Assembly: GCA_022508945.1 (NCBI GenBank)
Contig: JAFLUE010000003.1
Span: forward strand, 1-42,551
Origin: Oscillospiraceae bacterium
GTDB lineage: Bacteria > Bacillota > Clostridia > Oscillospirales > Ruminococcaceae
Direction of reading: 5' to 3'
Length of the DNA stretch: 42,551 nt
This document shows, one piece after another, positions 32,194-42,551 of the stretch. The notes under the pieces are model-generated. The model made no database searches, had not been told where the DNA came from, and was given only the letters and a program-made list of their open reading frames with translations. A program made the translations under genes and the position numbers. Each line of letters opens with the position of its first letter. Within the stretch, counting starts at the first letter, position 1.

Positions 32194-35100
32194 ATGAGAT
32201 TAAAGGCTCCTAAAAATTTTACGGCTGTTGGAGAAGACGGGGCTTGTGTCGCAAAATGGGAGGCGGTAGAGGACGCGGTAGGCTATAAGCTGTATTTTTT
32301 CCGCGCTTCCGAGCCGGAAAACTGCGTCAAGATCCGCTATTCGCAAAACTGTGAAAAGACGATTCTCGGTTTTGAAAACAATGAGGAGTATCTTGTAAGA
32401 ATACGCGCCTATTCCTTCAGAAAGGGCAGGGAAATGGTCGGCGCGGCAAGCGAAAAGGCTTCTTTTATCCCTGTTTGCAAAAGGCTTACGGCGCAGAAAA
32501 CGATTTGCCTTAAGGTTGGTGAAAAGGCTCAGATAAAGTGTGAGCGCGAAAACACGGAGCCAAAGATAAGGTCATATGCTTCAAACAATGATAGGATCGC
32601 GTCCGTCGACGCATCGGGCGTTGTTATGGCTAAAAGACCGGGCGTCTGCTATGTAAAGATCATGGCGATAGACGGAGAGTCGTTTGAAACAAGAGTTGAG
32701 GTAGAGCGTTCGCTTTCGTCTTCGGAAAACCGCGCGGTAATTATGCTTGCGGGAGATATTATGTGTACGCTCGCACAGAAACGTGCCTCAAAGGGAAATT
32801 CATACGATTTTACAGAAGCGTTTTCGGGAATAAGAGATACGCTTTCCGAGGCGGATTTTTCCGTGGGAGTTCTCGAGGCAATGTGCTATGACGGCGCTCC
32901 GTATGAAGACGAGCGTTTAAGACTGGAAAACGGAGCGTCAAACTCAAACTCGCCTTCGACCTTCCTTTCGGCGATCTCACGCGCGGGCTTCAAGGGACTC
33001 GTAACCGCTACCAATCATAACTGCGATGCGGGGGCGGACGGACTTTCCGCAACCGTCCACAGGATAGAAAGCCTGGGAATGAAGAACATCGGAACAATGG
33101 GCAGAAATCCTATTGTTCTGCGAATAAATGGGATAAAGGTCGGGTTTATTGCGCTTAGTTCGGCGTCAAACGGGCTTGAAGAAACCGTTGCGGATAATCA
33201 GCACATGACGACAACTCTCGGAAGATTTGGAAGGAAAAACTTTATCAGACTTGTCGGCCGCGCAAAATCAAGAGGCGCTGAGTATATAATCGCGTATCAG
33301 CACTGGGGAAGCATGAATACTCCCGTTGTGCTTGAAAAGCAGATAGAAACAGCCGAGTTTATGGCAAACTCGGGGGCGGATCTTATTGTCGGCTCACACC
33401 CGCATGTTATCCAAAAGCTCTCGATCATAAAAACAGAGGACGGAAGAAACGTTCCGTGTCTTTACTCTCTCGGAAATTTCCTTTCCACAATGAGCGACAA
33501 CCGCGAAAACCGTGACGGAGTAATACTTCGCGCAGAGCTTATAAAAAAGAATGACTCTATTACCACCGAGCTTTCGTATATCCCCGTATTCAGCGAGAGC
33601 AGGGAATTCGGCGCGGCGGTTGTTCGCGCGCTTCCCTCGCACAGCGCTTCTACGCTCGAAAGCTTTGAAAGAACGGCGAAAATATTAGGCAAAAAGCTTA
33701 AATGTCACACATACAGACCGAAAATCTTGCTTTCGGGTTCAAGCTTTCTTAAAAAGATATTCCATTCGGGAAATGATTTCAGAACCGATGATACGGCGAT
33801 GTTCGTATCACAGCTTTCGCTCGGCTCAAAGCCCGTGACGCCCGAGGAAAAATGCGGCGGAAGGCTTTCGCTCGAATTTACAAAGGACCTGTCGGAATAT
33901 ATTATTGACTCGGATCCCGATTATATTGCCGTTGATTTTTTCGGCGCGGGAACATATTCCTGCCTGCGGCTGGACAATGGCGAAGGGCATAGCTATTTTA
34001 CCAATACAAAAAGTTTTGTTCACAGCAGCTTTTTTGAAAAGCATAAGGAAGAGCTGATGAAAATACGTCCGCCATTTGGCGAGGGCATATTCAGACCGCT
34101 TGTCAGAAGTTATGCCGAAATGCTTATTGCTTCCGGGAAACAGGTGATCCTGTTCAGAACAAAGATAACAAACTCGCGCGCGAGAAAAACCGAGCTTCGT
34201 ACCGTTCCCGCTCCCGATCGCACAAACAAGTTTATAAAGGCAATGGAGGATTATTTTATCGAGCTTGTAAGACCGCGTATCGTTGATCTTTCGGGAAAGT
34301 ATTTTTCAAATGTAAACGGTGATGATTTCGAGGACGCATATTACGCGGATGCATACCGCGCGGTTCTGGAGATAACATCTCCGCATGAAAGGACCTGTGT
34401 TAATAAGCCAGACCTTGACATATGGTTTGAAAGGGTGCTGAAATATTACGACAGTATGACCATGCGTTCGTATTCAAAGCGGCTTTTGGATATGAACTGC
34501 GCGGCGGACAATATCATAGCGAAAACGAACAAGGAATTTGCCGCAAACAACCGCACACGTCTTTTAAAGCTGAAAGCTGCCGGAAACTGCGAGCTTTCGT
34601 CTGTCAGAAGATTTTTTGCAAACGATCCGTACGCCGAGGATATCTGCCGCGCGGCGGAAATAATAGACGCTGTTCAGAAGGGCGGACTTGAAAGGACCTA
34701 CGATTTTTTCAGACCCGCGTTTGCGGAAAAGTACAATATTGTAAAATCCATAGCCAAGCTTTTGGCTGTTCAGACAGAAATACCGGTAAACGAATCAAAC
34801 GCGGAGCTTGTTTTTCTTATTCGGGGAAGACCGCAGTTCAGAAGATATGCGACCGATCTGAATATGATGACCGTCGATATATGGGGAAGCTCTGTGTCGC
34901 GTGAGTCGCTCAATTGCTGCCGCGACGCACAGTTCGGAAAATTTATTCAGAAACAGGCGCCGATCCTGCATTATGAAGAGCCTGTGAAGATTGAGATACC
35001 CGAGGGTACGGAGGCGTTCCGCGGAAACACATATCGCAGAAAAACAACGGTCGATTCGTTTGCGAGAAACGGTTTTAATGTTCTCGAAGAAAGCAGTTCG

Positions 35101-35664
35101 AGCTGGATACTGCTGGACTTTTACGATGTTATCTGTCGAATGGCGGAATATAATGGCGCTTTGTTTGAGCTTGACGACTTCTTGATAAGCACCGATTTTT
35201 ACGCGGATATCAGAAGAAACTGTACGGAATGCTTTTTGTTTGAGAAGCGTTCTATGAATTATTGCAGTGAAAAAATAACAAAATTTGCTGAGGAAATAGC
35301 CGAGCTTTACGGTGACAATATAATCCTTATCAAAACCGAGCCGAAAAGCAGTTATATTACTCTCGACTATAAGCTCGAATCTTTTGGCTCGGATAGGCTC
35401 AATAACATAAAGAGAAAGTTTATAGCCTTATGTGAGGAGCGCTTCGCGAGTGTTACAAAATGCTTTGTAATAGACATCTCGAAGAAATTCTATTCTTCGG
35501 ATAAATTTGCGTATGGCGGCGCGAGCGTCGTAAACTACGAGGATGAATTCTACCGCCTCGCGGGGTATTATATTTCCGAGATCTTGAACGGCAACACCAA
35601 AAAGCTCTATAATGAGGTAGACGAGGACTATATCCTTCTTCGTGACCTTAAGCTCAGCAGATAA
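32194..35664 (+). CDS. Multidomain protein: N-terminal FN3/Ig-like (Big_2-type) modules, CapA-type metallophosphatase, C-terminal DUF6270-like region(s)
   Basis: MRLKAPKNFTAVGEDGACVAKWEAVEDAVGYKLYF (FN3-like); KVGEKAQIKCER...YASNNDRIASVDASGVVMAKRPGVCYVKI (Big_2-like); MLAGDIMC, TNHNCDAGADGL, YQHWGS, IVGSHPHVIQ, YSLGNFLS (CapA/PGA_cap); VDIWGSSVSRESLNCC...LDFYDVICRM (DUF6270-like). Confidence 0.82.
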   Translation: MRLKAPKNFTAVGEDGACVAKWEAVEDAVGYKLYFFRASEPENCVKIRYSQNCEKTILGFENNEEYLVRIRAYSFRKGREMVGAASEKASFIPVCKRLTAQKTICLKVGEKAQIKCERENTEPKIRSYASNNDRIASVDASGVVMAKRPGVCYVKIMAIDGESFETRVEVERSLSSSENRAVIMLAGDIMCTLAQKRASKGNSYDFTEAFSGIRDTLSEADFSVGVLEAMCYDGAPYEDERLRLENGASNSNSPSTFLSAISRAGFKGLVTATNHNCDAGADGLSATVHRIESLGMKNIGTMGRNPIVLRINGIKVGFIALSSASNGLEETVADNQHMTTTLGRFGRKNFIRLVGRAKSRGAEYIIAYQHWGSMNTPVVLEKQIETAEFMANSGADLIVGSHPHVIQKLSIIKTEDGRNVPCLYSLGNFLSTMSDNRENRDGVILRAELIKKNDSITTELSYIPVFSESREFGAAVVRALPSHSASTLESFERTAKILGKKLKCHTYRPKILLSGSSFLKKIFHSGNDFRTDDTAMFVSQLSLGSKPVTPEEKCGGRLSLEFTKDLSEYIIDSDPDYIAVDFFGAGTYSCLRLDNGEGHSYFTNTKSFVHSSFFEKHKEELMKIRPPFGEGIFRPLVRSYAEMLIASGKQVILFRTKITNSRARKTELRTVPAPDRTNKFIKAMEDYFIELVRPRIVDLSGKYFSNVNGDDFEDAYYADAYRAVLEITSPHERTCVNKPDLDIWFERVLKYYDSMTMRSYSKRLLDMNCAADNIIAKTNKEFAANNRTRLLKLKAAGNCELSSVRRFFANDPYAEDICRAAEIIDAVQKGGLERTYDFFRPAFAEKYNIVKSIAKLLAVQTEIPVNESNAELVFLIRGRPQFRRYATDLNMMTVDIWGSSVSRESLNCCRDAQFGKFIQKQAPILHYEEPVKIEIPEGTEAFRGNTYRRKTTVDSFARNGFNVLEESSSSWILLDFYDVICRMAEYNGALFELDDFLISTDFYADIRRNCTECFLFEKRSMNYCSEKITKFAEEIAELYGDNIILIKTEPKSSYITLDYKLESFGSDRLNNIKRKFIALCEERFASVTKCFVIDISKKFYSSDKFAYGGASVVNYEDEFYRLAGYYISEILNGNTKKLYNEVDEDYILLRDLKLSR

Positions 35665-35683: not shown

Positions 35684-36904
35684 ATGATAAGCAAACGCAG
35701 CGGCATTTCGCCGCGAATACATAAAACAGTTGCGCTTGCGGTCATACTCGGCTTCGCAATTACCTTGCTCGGTTGTCAGGACGTGAGTAAGCCTTCGGAT
35801 TCTCAAAGCTCGTTGTCGGGTGAGATATCGTCAATATCTGATTCGGGCGATCTTGAGTCAAGTTCGGTTTCGGATGAATTCTCCTCAAGCTCATCAACGA
35901 GCGGGTTTTCATCAAGCTCAATGCCGGACGGATCTTCGTCAAGCTCGGAAACGGGCGGATCTTCATCAAGTTCGACTTCTGTCGGATCATCATCGGTTCC
36001 GGCGTCGAGCGGAGGTTCGTCAAGCTCAAGTATAGTTCCATCAAGCTCGTCAAGTTCACCGGCAAGCTCGTCGTCAAATCCGCCAAACGTTGTAATACCG
36101 GATATCGCGGTTCCGACTTCTCCCGGGACTGCCATACTGACAGCGAATAACGCTGTCATTGATTATTCAAACGCGATGAGCGGATATGTTTCCGTAAAAT
36201 ATAACGGAAGTGCCGCACGAGTTAAATTCAGGTATGTCTTCGCAGACAAAGTGTATACCTTTGATATGGTAATGGACGGTTCTGTACAGTATTTCCCGCT
36301 CTCCTGCGGAAGCGGAACTTACACATTCTACGTTTTTGAAATTATTGAAGGGAATAATGCCCTGACTCCATTTCCGCAGACTGTCAATATTACAATAACA
36401 AACAACATAAAGCCGTATACTTATCCTAACCGCTATGTCTATTATAGCAAAAATTCGAATTGCGTACAAAAAGCCGCGGAGCTATGCGCTGGCAAAACAA
36501 GCGATATCGACAAGATATCGGCGATTTTCTTATACATTTCAGGCAACATTTCCTACGATTACCAACTTGCCGCGACGGTACAGAAGGGATATATTCCAAA
36601 TCCCGACAGTACGCTCAGAAGTAAAAAGGGAATATGCTTTGACTACGCCTCGCTTATGGCGGCAATGCTCCGCTCTCAGGGGATACCGACGCGGCTTGTT
36701 ATAGGCTACGCAAGTCCCGATATATATCATGCGTGGAACGAGATATACACGGAGCAGACGGGCTGGATAACTCCTGAGCTTTTTATGAGCAGGATCGGAT
36801 ATAATATTGCGGACGCAACGTTTTACGCGAGCGCTTCCAACAAAAAAAATATTTCGGATTATATTATGAACAGCACAAATTATTCTGCTGTTTATTACTA
36901 TTGA
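35684..36904 (+). CDS. Lipoprotein with Ser-rich linker and transglutaminase-like domain
   Basis: Start ATG 35684 with SD GAAAGGAG, lipobox-like AITLLGC, long SSSS linker, then CFDYASLMAAMLRSQGIPTRLVIGYASPDIYHAWNEIYTEQTGWITPEL (Cys-His transglutaminase-like core). Confidence 0.88.
   Translation: MISKRSGISPRIHKTVALAVILGFAITLLGCQDVSKPSDSQSSLSGEISSISDSGDLESSSVSDEFSSSSSTSGFSSSSMPDGSSSSSETGGSSSSSTSVGSSSVPASSGGSSSSSIVPSSSSSSPASSSSNPPNVVIPDIAVPTSPGTAILTANNAVIDYSNAMSGYVSVKYNGSAARVKFRYVFADKVYTFDMVMDGSVQYFPLSCGSGTYTFYVFEIIEGNNALTPFPQTVNITITNNIKPYTYPNRYVYYSKNSNCVQKAAELCAGKTSDIDKISAIFLYISGNISYDYQLAATVQKGYIPNPDSTLRSKKGICFDYASLMAAMLRSQGIPTRLVIGYASPDIYHAWNEIYTEQTGWITPELFMSRIGYNIADATFYASASNKKNISDYIMNSTNYSAVYYY
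35850..36085 (+). repeat. Low-complexity Ser-rich coding repeat (TCNTCAAGCTC-type units)
   Basis: SSSVSDEFSSSSSTSGFSSSSMPDGSSSSSETGGSSSSSTSVGSSSV..., imperfect SSSS-x-x-GS units within the lipoprotein gene. Confidence 0.8.
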
Positions 36905-36920: not shown

Positions 36921-37958
36921 ATGAAGAGGCTTTCTTCGGACGAAACAGCGTATTTTTTTGAACAGCTTGCTATGATACTTAACGCGGGTATGCAGCTCTC
37001 GGACGGAATGGATATTCTTTTTGAAGATCTGAGTGACAAGCGGATAAGAGAAATATGCGGTCAGCTTTCAAAAAGCATAAACAGCGGAAAAACTCTCGGG
37101 GACGCAATGGAAGAATGCGGTAAATTTCCCGAATACGCTGTAAACATGGTGAAGATCGGAAGCGTAACAGGACGGCTCGAAAATGTTCTGAAGGATCTTT
37201 CGGAGTATTATGAAAACCGGGCCGAGCTTAACAGAACTGTAAGATCAGCAGTTATCCACCCGCTTATGCTGCTTTTGATGATGACCGCGGTAATAGTTGT
37301 GCTTATCGTGCTTGTACTTCCGATGTTCAGCAAGATATTCGCTCAGTTTGACGCTTCCGTAAGCGAGACCGTAAGCTCCGCGGTAAACACCGCGTACGGG
37401 ATAGGCTGGGTCATCCTGATAGTGCTTCTTGCGGTTATTGTCTCGGTCATAATAATTTCGCTTTTGTCGCTTATACCTTCCGTGAGGAAAAGGCTTTCAA
37501 GCTTCCTTACGGTATTTCCTCTTACAAAGCGTATTTCCAAAAAGTTTTCTCTTGCGAAAATATCGAGCGCAATGAGCCTTATGGCGTCTGCGGGAATAGC
37601 GGCGGAGGAGATGCCGATGTACGCGGCTTCGCTCATAAATGACAAAAAGCTTGTAAACAAGCTTGAAAACTGCCGTGAGCGTGTGTTGAACGGGGAATAT
37701 TTCGCGGACGTTATCTCCACGTCAAACATCTTCCCGCCGATGTTCGCTCATTCTCTTAAATTTTCATACACCTCCGGTTCTTTTGAGCAGTCCTGGAAAA
37801 AACTTTCGGAGCGCTGCGACTATGAGGCAGCGGAGGCGGCTTCGGGAATTGTGTCGGTCATAGAACCGCTTATTGTAATAATTCTCACAACGGTTATAGG
37901 CGCGGTTTTGCTTTCGGTCATGATACCGCTTATGAATATAATGTCTGTTTTAGGGTGA
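36921..37958 (+). CDS. Type II secretion/type IV pilus inner-membrane protein, PilC/GspF family
   Basis: FFEQLAMILNAGMQLSDGMDILFED, SINSGKTLGDAMEECGKFPEYAVNMVKIGSVTGRLENVLKDLSEYYENRAELNRTVRSAVIHPLMLL, MIPLMNIMSVLG. Confidence 0.92.
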   Translation: MKRLSSDETAYFFEQLAMILNAGMQLSDGMDILFEDLSDKRIREICGQLSKSINSGKTLGDAMEECGKFPEYAVNMVKIGSVTGRLENVLKDLSEYYENRAELNRTVRSAVIHPLMLLLMMTAVIVVLIVLVLPMFSKIFAQFDASVSETVSSAVNTAYGIGWVILIVLLAVIVSVIIISLLSLIPSVRKRLSSFLTVFPLTKRISKKFSLAKISSAMSLMASAGIAAEEMPMYAASLINDKKLVNKLENCRERVLNGEYFADVISTSNIFPPMFAHSLKFSYTSGSFEQSWKKLSERCDYEAAEAASGIVSVIEPLIVIILTTVIGAVLLSVMIPLMNIMSVLG

Positions 37959-37962
37959 AAAA

Positions 37963-38277
37963 ATGAAAAGAATTTCTGTGCGGAGAATATTGTCCGCGGC
38001 GCTCCCTATCGCCGTATTTATGATAATGATAGTCTGGCTTGTTTCGGGAGTGTTGAACGCGAACAGCGCTGTAGACGCAAATGAGCTTGAGGAAATAAAA
38101 AAGACAATAGAAAACGGCGTAACGATATGCTATGCTATAGAGGGTGTTTATCCCGAAAGCATTGATTACCTTAAGGAAAATTACGGTGTGGTCATCGACA
38201 GCAGCAAGTATATAGTGCATTATGAATCGATCGCGGCAAACATACGTCCCACCATAACAATCATTGAAAGGTGGTAA
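37963..38277 (+). CDS. Small single-TM protein in pilus-like operon
   Basis: MKRISVRRILSAALPIAVFMIMIVWLVSGVLNA, then EEIKKTIENGVTICYAIEGVYPESIDYLKENYGV, which resembles pseudopilin-like globular parts. Confidence 0.72.
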   Translation: MKRISVRRILSAALPIAVFMIMIVWLVSGVLNANSAVDANELEEIKKTIENGVTICYAIEGVYPESIDYLKENYGVVIDSSKYIVHYESIAANIRPTITIIERW

Positions 38278-38722
38278 AGAAGTGAAGAATTACAAAAATA
38301 CATCCGATACAATAAGCACGGTCGGAAGTATGCTATTGTTTTTGTTGTTTGCGGTATGTATGATGATGATAATTGCGGCAGCGGCAGGCTCTTACAGCCG
38401 TATCAGCGACAATTACGGAACAAATTTCACTGCCTCGGCTTCGATAAGATACATCTCAAATAAAATCAAAAGCGCCGATAAGGTCGATGTTTCGCAGAAC
38501 ATCATGGTATTGGAAAACGGGGGAGCTACAAACGTTATATATTATTCAAACGGGGGATTGTATGAAAAGACTGTTGCCGCGGGTACGGAATACGAGCTTT
38601 CGGGCGGTGACATGATCTTTGAACTAAACGGAATGGAAATAAATGAAACGGACGAGTTTTACAAAATAACGATAAATGTTGGCGGTGAAACAAGCGCCGC
38701 ACTTGTACGAAAAGGAAAATAA
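38264..38722 (+). CDS. DUF4860-like single-TM protein
   Basis: NTSDTISTVGSMLLFLLFAVCMMMIIAAAAGSYSRISDNYGTNFTASASIRYISNKIKSAD. Overlaps the previous gene. The start could be the GTG at 38282. Confidence 0.75.
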   Translation: MKGGKEVKNYKNTSDTISTVGSMLLFLLFAVCMMMIIAAAAGSYSRISDNYGTNFTASASIRYISNKIKSADKVDVSQNIMVLENGGATNVIYYSNGGLYEKTVAAGTEYELSGGDMIFELNGMEINETDEFYKITINVGGETSAALVRKGK

Positions 38723-38723
38723 A

Positions 38724-39125
38724 ATGAACAAATCCACAAAACGCCCGCTAAACCTGTTTTTTATCGAAATGATTATTGCGCTGTTGTTTTTCAGCATTTC
38801 CGGAGCGGTCATTCTTTCGGTTTTTGCGGGAGCTGACAGAAAATCCCGTCAGAGTGAAGTGCTTGAAAGTGTTATGGTGCTTTCTCAGTCTATAGCGGAG
38901 GTTTACTCAGAAAACGGAAATGCCGATGAAACAATTAAAATTGTAACGAACGAATGCGGCGGACTTAATGAAAACATAACGCTCACAAAGTATGAGGAAA
39001 AAACGCAAAGTGAAGCAGGAGTTCTCTCAAAGCTTACAGTTACATTTTCCGAGGACAAAAGAGAAATATACAGATTTACCTGCGCGGCGTACATTCAAAA
39101 CGGAGGAAATAATGAACAGACCTAA
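38724..39125 (+). CDS. Pilin-like (pseudopilin) protein with non-canonical N-terminal motif
   Basis: MNKSTKRPLNLFFIEMIIALLFFSISGAVILSVF: basic leader, hydrophobic helix with Glu at position 5 of LFFIE. ATG at 38724 is right after the upstream stop. Confidence 0.78.
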   Translation: MNKSTKRPLNLFFIEMIIALLFFSISGAVILSVFAGADRKSRQSEVLESVMVLSQSIAEVYSENGNADETIKIVTNECGGLNENITLTKYEEKTQSEAGVLSKLTVTFSEDKREIYRFTCAAYIQNGGNNEQT

Positions 39126-39585
39126 ACAGAAAAACGCGGGAATAGGCGTAGGATATATAACCGTAATGATTATTTTTGCGGTGCTTTGTCTTACGATCTT
39201 TGCTGTTCTCAGTTTTCACGCGGCAGGCTCGAATGACGCTCTGAACGCCCGTGCCGGAAATTATCTTAATGAGTATTACGAGGCGGATATGTCCGCAAAG
39301 GAAATACTTTTTAAGCTTGACGGGATCGCAAAAACCTCAAGAGATTCGCTTTTTTTCACAGAAAGCTTTGAGGAAGCGGCAGGGGAGATAGACGGAGTTT
39401 CTGTCAAAGCCGCAAATGGAGGATGTACAGCCGAGTTTGTCGTTTCAATAAATGAGCGTCAGAATATCTTTGTCAGCATAACATTTTTTGAACACACTCG
39501 TGAGTACAGGATAAATTCCTGGCAGAATGTAACCGACGCTTTTGATGAAAATACGGGACTTAATGTATGGGACGGAACATTTTAG
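39112..39585 (+). CDS. Small single-TM secreted protein in pilus-like operon
   Basis: Start ATG 39112 with SD GGAGG (MNRPKQKNAGIGVGYITVMIIFAVLCLTIFAVLSFHAAGSNDALNARAGNYLNEYYEADMSAKEIL). Overlaps the previous gene. Confidence 0.75.
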   Translation: MNRPKQKNAGIGVGYITVMIIFAVLCLTIFAVLSFHAAGSNDALNARAGNYLNEYYEADMSAKEILFKLDGIAKTSRDSLFFTESFEEAAGEIDGVSVKAANGGCTAEFVVSINERQNIFVSITFFEHTREYRINSWQNVTDAFDENTGLNVWDGTF

Positions 39586-39599
39586 AATGTGAGGGAAAT

Positions 39600-40652
39600 A
39601 TGGAACTGCTTGAAATTTTAAAAACAGCGTCAGATGATTTTGCTTCCGATATATTTATAATATCCGGAGCGGCGCTGAGCTACAAAACAAACGGTAAACT
39701 TATAAAAATCGATGAAAATATGCTTACTCCGACAATGACAAAAGAGCTTGTTTACGAGATCTACAAGCTCGGCGGATTTTCGTTCGGGATCGATGATATG
39801 CCCGAAAAAGAAATGGATTTCTCTATCTCTGTCGTCGGAATGGGGCGCTTTCGCGCAAACGTCTTTAAACAGCGCGGATCGTATGCGGCGGTACTGAGAT
39901 ATGTTCCGTTTACGCTTCCCGAACCCGATAAGTTAGGGATCCCGGAGGGTGTAATGCGGCTGTCGCAGATGAAAAGCGGCATAGTGCTTGTAACGGGACC
40001 TGCGGGAAGCGGAAAATCCACGACGCTTTCCTGTATTATCGAGCAGATAAATATGGAGCGCGCCGGTCATATAATAACAATTGAAGACCCTATAGAATTC
40101 CTTCATAAGCATAAAAAAAGCATTATCAGCCAGCGCGAGATAAATATCGATACGGACAGCTATCTTTCCGCGCTGCGCTCGGCGCTCAGACAGTCTCCTG
40201 ACGTGATCCTTCTCGGAGAGATGCGCGATTATGAAACAATAAGCGTGGCAATGACCGCGGCGGAAACAGGACAGCTTGTGCTTTCAACGCTTCATACGCT
40301 CGGCGCGGCAAACACGATCGATCGAATTATTGACGTATTCCCAACAAATCAGCAGCACCAGATACGCATACAGCTTTCGATGGTTTTGAATGCTGTTATC
40401 TCACAGCAGCTTGTCGTGTCAAAAGAAGGAAAGTTCGTTCCCGCGTTTGAAATAATGACAATGAACAGCGCTATAAGAACGCTTATCCGTGATGAGAAAA
40501 CTCATCAGATCGACTCGATCATTCAGTCGGCTCCCGGAATGACAACAATGGACAACAGCTTACTAAATATGTATAAAAACGGGGTGATTTCTGCCGAAAC
40601 CGCGGTAAAATGTGCTTATAACCCCGATATAATGAGCAAAAGGGTCATGTAA
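39600..40652 (+). CDS. PilT-like type IV pilus ATPase
   Basis: Walker A VLVTGPAGSGKSTTLSCII, Asp-box IITIEDPIEFLH, LLGEMRDYETI, TAAETGQLVLSTLHT, C-terminal MNSAIRTLIRDEKTHQIDSIIQ. Start ATG 39600 with SD GAGGG. Confidence 0.93.
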   Translation: MELLEILKTASDDFASDIFIISGAALSYKTNGKLIKIDENMLTPTMTKELVYEIYKLGGFSFGIDDMPEKEMDFSISVVGMGRFRANVFKQRGSYAAVLRYVPFTLPEPDKLGIPEGVMRLSQMKSGIVLVTGPAGSGKSTTLSCIIEQINMERAGHIITIEDPIEFLHKHKKSIISQREINIDTDSYLSALRSALRQSPDVILLGEMRDYETISVAMTAAETGQLVLSTLHTLGAANTIDRIIDVFPTNQQHQIRIQLSMVLNAVISQQLVVSKEGKFVPAFEIMTMNSAIRTLIRDEKTHQIDSIIQSAPGMTTMDNSLLNMYKNGVISAETAVKCAYNPDIMSKRVM

Positions 40653-40840: not shown

Positions 40841-40911
40841 AATAGTAACCACAAGCAGTGGGTGAATTGTATCCATTTATAATTTTTTTATTTTATTAGG
40901 AGATGACAGCC

Positions 40912-42551
40912 ATGTCGAATGAAGAAAAAAGGAAAAAACCAAATAAGGGCAAAGTCGCCTTTATGTTTGCGTTTGCTGTTACCGTTTTGGGTTCACGCGC
41001 AGGTGCAATGACGGCATCGGCTGCTGTAAATCCGGGCGATGACGCGAATAATAACAACGGCGACGGTCAGTCCCAAAGCCAGCAGAATGAGATAGGCTCT
41101 AAAGAGGGCTATCTTAAGTGCGGCTCAAATGTCTACATTGCTTCAGAGGAAGCAAGTGCGGTCAAGGGCTTAAACAACTCGCTTTCGGGTCTGAAGGGCT
41201 TTGCCGCATATACTAAAGATCTCAATATGTACGGTATCCACGTTGAGGGAAATATCTGCGCGGAAACCGTGAATAAGTTTGACGTTTTCAACACAAATGT
41301 CGCTGATAACTTTGTGAAAAACAACGTTGACGGATTTGACGTTTATACCTGCTATATCGCTCAGCCCCCGCAGGACGGCGGAGATATCATCAAGGTACAT
41401 ATGTATGAAGGAACGTCATACGAGCTTGTCCTTGGTTTTGACTTTGAAGAGCGCTTTTTTGATAACGGAAATCAGCTTGGCTTCAGCGCGGGCGGAAAAG
41501 ACTATAAGATCGAGTGCGAAGACAAGAACAGAGTTACTATACGCAGAGCTACCGTTGATGACAAGTTTGCTGACATAAGCGGTAATCTTGACTTGATGGC
41601 AAAGGCGGGTCAGGCACTTATAAATGAGGTCGGATATTCCGCGGATGAATCCGGAAATTCCCTCGAAGATGCAGTTTTTGCGATAGAAAGTAAAGCAGTT
41701 AAACCCGGTCAAACTATCGTAGCAAGCGTACACTGCAACGACTTGCGGTCAAATGGCAGTTACATAGAAAAGCTTCTGACAGATAACGGTGGCGTTAATG
41801 TTATTATCAACGTTATTACCGACGCAGATACAAATTATGTTGATATGGGCGTTGCAAATAACGGAGTAAACTGGAATCTTTCTAATGCCAACGTTACTTT
41901 CAACTTCGGCGATTATGCGGGCGATGTTAAGGCTTCCCAGATGGGCGGACTTATCGTTGCGCCGAACGCACACTTCTTTAATGACGGCGTTCTCAGCGGC
42001 AGCATTTTCGCAAGTGATGTAAAGATGAATAATGAGATCCATCAGATCACTCCCGATGACGGCACGGTTTCTTCTTCCGATGATGAAGATCAAGACGATG
42101 ATCAGAACGTGCAGGATAGCGAAGAGGATGAGGAGTCTGATGAAGACGATTCCAACAAGAATGTCGATGAGGATGTTGTAGAAGACAACGGCGATGATGA
42201 TGACGGCGGAGACGATGATGAAACCACCGGCGGCGATGGCGGAGACGATGACACCGACAATGATGGTGATGACACCGATGATACTACGCCGGATGACGGT
42301 GATGACGACGATTCGGAAGATAAAGTCGTAGGTGAAGATCCGTCGATTGAAACTGACGACGATGACGGAAATGACAATCCTCCCGATGATAATAATACAG
42401 ATGATGGTTCCGATGAAGAAACCGATGTGCCTGATGACACCACAAGCACAGGCGGTGATAATAATGAAGATGAAGTAATTGACGATACGCCTGATGATCC
42501 TCAGACGCCCGACGAGCCTGAGACTCCCGATACACCTGATGATCCTCAGAC
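40912..42551 (+). CDS. Choice-of-anchor-A-like secreted surface protein with long Asp/Glu-rich tail (partial; continues past the window; not in the supplied ORF track)
   Basis: SD GGAGATGA, ATG at 40912, signal peptide KGKVAFMFAFAVTVLGSRAGAMTASA; VNWNLSNANVTFNFGDYAGDVKASQMGGLIVAPNAHFFNDGVLSGSIFASDVKMNNEIHQI typical of choice-of-anchor A. No stop codon before the window end. Confidence 0.88.
   Translation, partial: MSNEEKRKKPNKGKVAFMFAFAVTVLGSRAGAMTASAAVNPGDDANNNNGDGQSQSQQNEIGSKEGYLKCGSNVYIASEEASAVKGLNNSLSGLKGFAAYTKDLNMYGIHVEGNICAETVNKFDVFNTNVADNFVKNNVDGFDVYTCYIAQPPQDGGDIIKVHMYEGTSYELVLGFDFEERFFDNGNQLGFSAGGKDYKIECEDKNRVTIRRATVDDKFADISGNLDLMAKAGQALINEVGYSADESGNSLEDAVFAIESKAVKPGQTIVASVHCNDLRSNGSYIEKLLTDNGGVNVIINVITDADTNYVDMGVANNGVNWNLSNANVTFNFGDYAGDVKASQMGGLIVAPNAHFFNDGVLSGSIFASDVKMNNEIHQITPDDGTVSSSDDEDQDDDQNVQDSEEDEESDEDDSNKNVDEDVVEDNGDDDDGGDDDETTGGDGGDDDTDNDGDDTDDTTPDDGDDDDSEDKVVGEDPSIETDDDDGNDNPPDDNNTDDGSDEETDVPDDTTSTGGDNNEDEVIDDTPDDPQTPDEPETPDTPDDPQ
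42050..42551 (+). repeat. Low-complexity GAT/GAC/GAA-rich coding tail and start of a (TPDDPQTPDEPET)-type tandem repeat
   Basis: Translated DDEDQDDDQNVQDSEEDEESDEDDSN... ending VIDDTPDDPQTPDEPETPDTPDDPQ at the window edge. Confidence 0.85.

Follow-up and report, generated by a model that had tools for sequence, protein, structure and literature searches.

A conserved gene cluster with a PilT-type ATPase as its only recognizable motor suggests an unusual type IV filament-like machine in Clostridia

We analyzed a 42,551-nucleotide contig of an Oscillospiraceae bacterium (GenBank assembly GCA_022508945.1, contig JAFLUE010000003.1, the whole of which is called the window below) and found on its plus strand a compact module of seven genes, tgl-pilC-orf2-DUF4860-orf4-orf5-pilT, coding for a transglutaminase-like lipoprotein, a PilC-type platform protein, four small single-transmembrane (TM) proteins and a PilT-type ATPase. 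The anatomy of the module is well supported. Our favored reading, to which we give a probability of about 0.55, is that the cluster is a self-standing type IV filament-like machine of the cell envelope, with the PilT-type ATPase as its sole motor and with pilin-like subunits that are probably left uncleaved. The observations counted for this reading include the following: the module has PilC and PilT clades of its own, its gene order is conserved, it occurs in genomes without PilB and without an A24 prepilin peptidase, the glycine at position -1 of orf4 is not conserved, the catalytic triad of Tgl is invariant, some loci have a sortase in their flanks, and the structure models of two subunits show a long helix and a beta domain.

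The module begins with tgl (35684..36904), coding for a secreted lipoprotein with a transglutaminase-like core (PF01841; Transglut_core, 2.1e-26), which ends 16 bp before pilC. pilC (36921..37958) encodes a short platform protein of 345 residues matched by Pfam T2SSF (1.1e-37). It is followed by orf2 (37963..38277), whose 104-residue single-TM product is a candidate major pilin-like subunit, judging from its conservation and its AlphaFold2 (AF2) layout; by orf3 (38282..38722), a single-TM DUF4860 protein (PF16152, 7.7e-8) with a GTG start; by orf4 (38724..39125), with a pilin-like N-terminus (LFFIE); and by orf5 (39112..39585), a single-TM protein with the motif GxxSLxxIF...YYAAD, conserved in nearly all loci and possibly PilX/GspK-like. 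All four small proteins carry one hydrophobic segment at the N-terminal end. The last gene, pilT, encodes a PilT-family hexameric ATPase; its open reading frame (ORF) opens at 39567, and the preferred start is at 39600 (39600..40652), with GAGGGA just upstream. An earlier note on this DNA, made from the letters alone, had described six closely packed, partly overlapping genes, and the coordinates bear this out, with all six on the plus strand and gaps from pilC to pilT of 4, 4, 1, -14 and 14 bp. Its identification of PilC (T2SSF), DUF4860 and PilT (TIGR01420) was confirmed by Pfam and NCBIfam profile searches. It had overlooked the conserved tgl, which is part of the cluster and makes it one of seven genes, as well as the recurring sortase and BTAD-type regulator neighbors.

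The seven-gene order recurred in more than 100 loci, so that chance was excluded as an explanation of the cluster. The cluster, which many gut bacteria carry, is inherited as one unit. The order was kept in most of 60 loci from relatives, where tgl mostly comes immediately before pilC, and likewise in the majority of 80 named loci of the genome_contigs collection, several of which were truncated by contig ends; in a few loci tgl was downstream or not found. A pattern scan of that collection with a narrower alignment (A2), the broad alignment (A1) being too divergent for the scan, gave 318 contig stretches encoding an orf2 relative. Cultured carriers include Butyricicoccus pullicaecorum DSM 23266, Flintibacter muris DSM 110149 and Intestinibacillus massiliensis, and among further carriers are Sporanaerobium hydrogeniformans, a Lachnospiraceae strain and, in the Chloroflexota, Flexilinea flocculi TC1. 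DUF4860 was present in 55 of 295 good genomes sampled evenly from the order, and in 12 of 393 genomes sampled evenly from the phylum.

The draft genome to which the window belongs, as contig C208, measures 2.33 Mb and is 89.5% complete. Contig C226 of the same genome carries a canonical monoderm type IV pilus (T4P) locus, with PilC, a PilM-containing protein, a protein in the PilO position, PilB with MshEN, PilD with both A24 domains, a second PilT, and a pair of pilins that contain GFTLVE and match Pfam N_methyl. The absence of PilB, reported from the letters, thus holds within the window and fails for the genome, and the argument built on missing PilB, PilD and PilM fails here as well because C226 encodes all three; their absence is ruled out as a trait of this bacterium. 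A canonical locus elsewhere with the cluster as its accessory had also been considered: the locus was formally found, while the role of mere accessory was not borne out by relatives. That the cluster belongs to a little-described system with PilT alone, as had been suspected, is supported by near-complete relatives that have neither another assembly ATPase nor an A24 peptidase.

INDEPENDENCE from PilB and PilD was surveyed in 62 module-bearing genomes. Of these, 32 had a further ATPase of the assembly type (PilB, Tad- or Com-like), and A24 was present in all 32, with the match in one (G044) below the cut-off. Among the remaining 30 genomes, which had no other assembly ATPase, the profile search gave no A24 match in 28; the two exceptions, G119 with an A24 match and G305 with a short A24-like ORF, were left out of the PilD-less count. 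The association between A24 and another assembly ATPase reached p ~1e-15 in Fisher's test, a value that overstates its strength because genomes were counted rather than independent events, uncorrected for kinship. The presence of A24 in 32/32 genomes against no match in 28/30 indicated that the A24 peptidase accompanies the other pilus systems rather than the module. The 28 module-only genomes belong to many genera and several families, and nearly all are at least 90% complete. Two of them (G123 and G181) have an extra PilT-like fragment or protein and no PilB. B. pullicaecorum DSM 23266 and F. muris DSM 110149 were module-only by both the ATPase and the A24 tests; a weak A24-like match in B. 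pullicaecorum was rejected as a peptidase, since it sits in a membrane transporter-like ORF. From these near-complete relatives without another assembly ATPase and A24, we concluded that the module is independent of detectable PilB and PilD and is more than an accessory of a canonical pilus.

Motors of the PilT type are known mostly for retracting pili. The module ATPase of the window scored 406 bits with the NCBIfam model of the PilT/PilU family (TIGR01420, cut-off 319.1). When 80 ATPases were placed in a maximum-likelihood tree, those of the module formed a single clade (100/98) nested inside PilT and apart from PilB/GspE and the Tad-type group. The tree, which had been suggested along with the PilT assignment, therefore agreed with that assignment and ruled out a PilB/GspE identity. 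Walker A, Walker B, the His box and the AIRNLIRE-type C-terminal motif are conserved in the module PilT, and Walker A reads GPAGSGKS in the module clade against GPTGSGKS in canonical PilT, with Ala for Thr in 57/61 sequences. The module PilT of the window shares 54% identity with its counterpart in the Flexilinea module and 41% with the canonical copy encoded in the same genome. PilC lacks the N-terminal ~57 residues of GspF and fell below every NCBIfam equivalog cut-off; the ComGB model gave it 117.1 bits against a cut-off of 240, and the ComGA model gave the ATPase 126.7 bits against a cut-off of 300. The module PilCs were separated from canonical PilC on one side of a branch with a Shimodaira-Hasegawa-like approximate likelihood ratio test (SH-aLRT) value of 100. 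Some relatives have a third, orphan PilT outside both pilus loci (G034:C5, locus L141; G042:C32, L140; G044:C12, L142). In locus L146 (G086:C53), a PilT lying beside a PilC is sister to the module clade, and it is a possible intermediate between the canonical T4P and the module.

The N-termini of the four small proteins are non-canonical as had been described, with a G|FTLIE site in none of them. The pilin Glu is conserved in orf4 only, where it was found in 59/61 members, while Gly occupied position -1 in 15/61, and here genomes that have A24 did not differ clearly from those that lack it. orf4 also gave weak profile matches to geopilin, PilA, PpdD and GspJ. The class III motif G|xxxxE was found in none of orf2, orf3 and orf5. 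orf2 is the most conserved small subunit, with the motifs CYAxEGxYP ... FASNxxP, and its AF2 model (predicted local distance difference test score, pLDDT, 88.9) has a helix at 6-60 plus a beta hairpin. orf3 matched DUF4860 at 32.6 bits (gathering cut-off 25), as did 63/63 members of its family, and the model of the Butyricicoccus homologue (pLDDT 92.0) has a helix at 5-59 plus seven strands. The modeling that the note had suggested thus predicted for two of the proteins an N-terminal helix of ~55 residues followed by a beta domain, which would be the overall layout of a pilin. orf5 matched PilX_N in only 1/36 members. When orf2-orf5 were compared with known pilin families by Pfam, PDB profiles, HHalign and Foldseek, there was mostly no significant match, and only orf4 was weakly similar. 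To judge from their layout and their place in the operon, orf2, orf3 and orf5 may therefore be pilins, with the fold partly supported.

Tgl scored 92.8 bits with PF01841 (cut-off 23). Its Cys318, His349 and Asp377 were invariant in 56/56 sequences and the lipobox Cys31 was present in 89%, suggesting that Tgl is likely an active extracytoplasmic enzyme. Flanking genes were counted in 82 loci with good flanks. Sortase genes were found in 23/82 (~28%), a BTAD-type regulator, usually divergent from tgl and present also in Flexilinea, near 36/82, and response regulators with HD and GGDEF domains near 24/82. No recurring peptidase gene was found in the flanks of the module.

On the favored reading of a self-standing machine, the PilT hexamer would turn or pull on PilC and so move a short pseudopilus up and down, the pilin-like subunits of which would remain in the membrane without being cleaved. 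The stroke of the pseudopilus could move or position a cell-surface substrate for Tgl and, in some lineages, for sortase. Its role would then probably be the handling of surface proteins or of the cell wall, not twitching.

Several points weigh against this reading. The filament is a prediction from the genes, and we infer its formation, the direction of its motor and its biological role. The absences come from profile searches (PF00437 and PF01478) of draft and metagenome-assembled genomes, and an enzyme other than A24 may process the subunits, or an unrelated motor may drive extension. Sequence profiles do not place orf2, orf3 and orf5 in pilin families. Foldseek gave no significant PDB match for the orf2 or orf3 models; type IV pilins had the top TM-scores for orf2, reaching 0.49, though at E values greater than 1. 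Most loci are without a sortase.

The alternative that survives best, though we consider it unlikely, is a divergent competence (Com-like) pilus, in which DNA from outside the cell would be bound by the module and handed on to ComEC as PilT retracts the pilus. A platform, an ATPase and pilins, with no PilM/N/O, would suffice for a Com pilus too, and ComEC was present without any other pilus-assembly ATPase in 27/29 module-only genomes tested. ComEC was, however, also present in 49/50 genomes without the module, which shows no association; being near-universal with or without the module, it was uninformative as a link to natural transformation. In addition, the ATPase falls in the PilT clade and not with ComGA, PilC is under the ComGB cut-off, com genes were not noticed among the neighbors of the module, and a transglutaminase and a sortase are foreign to Com.

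Less probable again is an ordinary type IV pilus with an extension motor and a prepilin peptidase that are too divergent from, or not homologous to, the families behind the profiles. Our absences do depend on PF00437 and PF01478, and orf4 retains the pilin Glu, but the same models found A24 wherever a module genome had another assembly ATPase, no peptidase gene was found repeatedly in the flanks, and the -1 residue of orf4 is unconserved.

We give slightly less credit to a third explanation, in which the cluster supplies an extra retraction motor and a set of minor pilins to a canonical T4P and uses PilB and PilD encoded elsewhere. This would fit the genome of the window, where C226 encodes PilB, PilD, PilM and GFTLVE pilins, but it does not fit the 28 module genomes without a PilB-class ATPase and A24, nor the separate clade of the module PilC. 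That the cluster is the remnant of a decaying T4P operon is very improbable: core parts are missing and the pilins are divergent, but many families, and the Chloroflexota as well, keep the seven-gene order and the catalytic residues.

Other genes stand near the module in particular lineages. In the window, a gene for a CapA-like protein of 1156 residues (32194..35664, plus strand; PGA_cap, PF09587, 7e-45) lies 19 bp upstream of tgl. This linkage was seen in 6 loci, all of the genus of the window, and the gene is a lineage-specific extension of the operon limited to that genus. Right after pilT lies a gene for an acidic, D/T-rich repeat surface protein (40903..42551, plus strand), a genus-specific neighbor truncated by the contig end, with a weak Gram_pos_anchor match (0.0052); its homologues (L083, L084, L085 and L086) carry a C-terminal NPYTG-type sorting signal. 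Elsewhere, the sortase gene often abuts pilT or tgl (L077, L163, L178, L217, L225, L259 and others), in some cases overlapping pilT or lying a few bases from it, and in L267 it stands between tgl and pilC. The BTAD regulator is divergent from tgl in L206, L222, L244, L248 and L258, and the Flexilinea copy has a weak GGDEF match. A protein of ~151 residues with no Pfam match is encoded near the module in 16/82 loci (for example L218:1493-1948 and L244:1368-1826).

A conserved module in genomes that lack two of the four core parts would show which parts of a filament are essential. It bears on whether a lone PilT-type motor drives assembly and on whether pilin-like subunits work uncleaved, it supplies a functional context for DUF4860, and gut commensals that are in culture, Butyricicoccus pullicaecorum and Flintibacter muris among them, make the question open to experiment. 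We found no description of the module and no mention of DUF4860 in the open-access papers searched, and no such class in those parts of the survey of Denise et al. that we consulted (PMC6668835).

According to a recent review, pilins, a prepilin peptidase, an extension ATPase and a platform are the core of every type IV filament system (PMC10191384). Of these features the module has the platform, and it has no extension ATPase, A24 peptidase or class III signal. With a homologous platform and ATPase and three defining features lacking, we filed it as a variant within the type IV filament kind. A bolder proposal, which in our judgment falls a little short of an even chance, is a separate filament class reaching from Clostridia into Chloroflexota, powered by a PilT-clade ATPase alone, with pilin-like subunits that are never processed, and coupled to transglutaminase and sortase enzymes at the surface. 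If true, such a class would break the rule that type IV filaments all need an extension ATPase and a prepilin peptidase.

Among known systems, the Com pilus (ComGA-GG) resembles the module in its minimal set of platform, ATPase and a run of small pilin-like genes, with no PilM/N/O and no secretin, and it illustrates that a platform plus an ATPase can suffice (PMC10191384). The module differs from it in the PilT-clade ATPase, the missing cleavage motif, the transglutaminase-like lipoprotein, the gene order and, in 28 genomes, the lack of a detectable ComC/PilD. The type IVa pilus (pilB-pilT-pilC-pilM/N/O, as on C226) shares homologues of PilT and PilC, whereas the module is without PilB, PilD and PilM/N/O and its PilT and PilC form separate clades. 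In the Vibrio MSHA pilus, PilT contributes to extension too (PMC9815625), and MSH loci, too, are without a prepilin peptidase gene (PMC6668835). MSHA, however, has an extension ATPase of its own and maybe takes its peptidase from another system in the genome, while the module is found where neither is detectable. The type II secretion pseudopilus (GspE-K) is also alike in having a platform followed by small pilin-like proteins, and a piston-like action would be plausible for both. It differs in that GspE is PilB-class, that GspG-K of E. coli have cleavable signals, and that GspC/D/L/M have no equivalents in the module.

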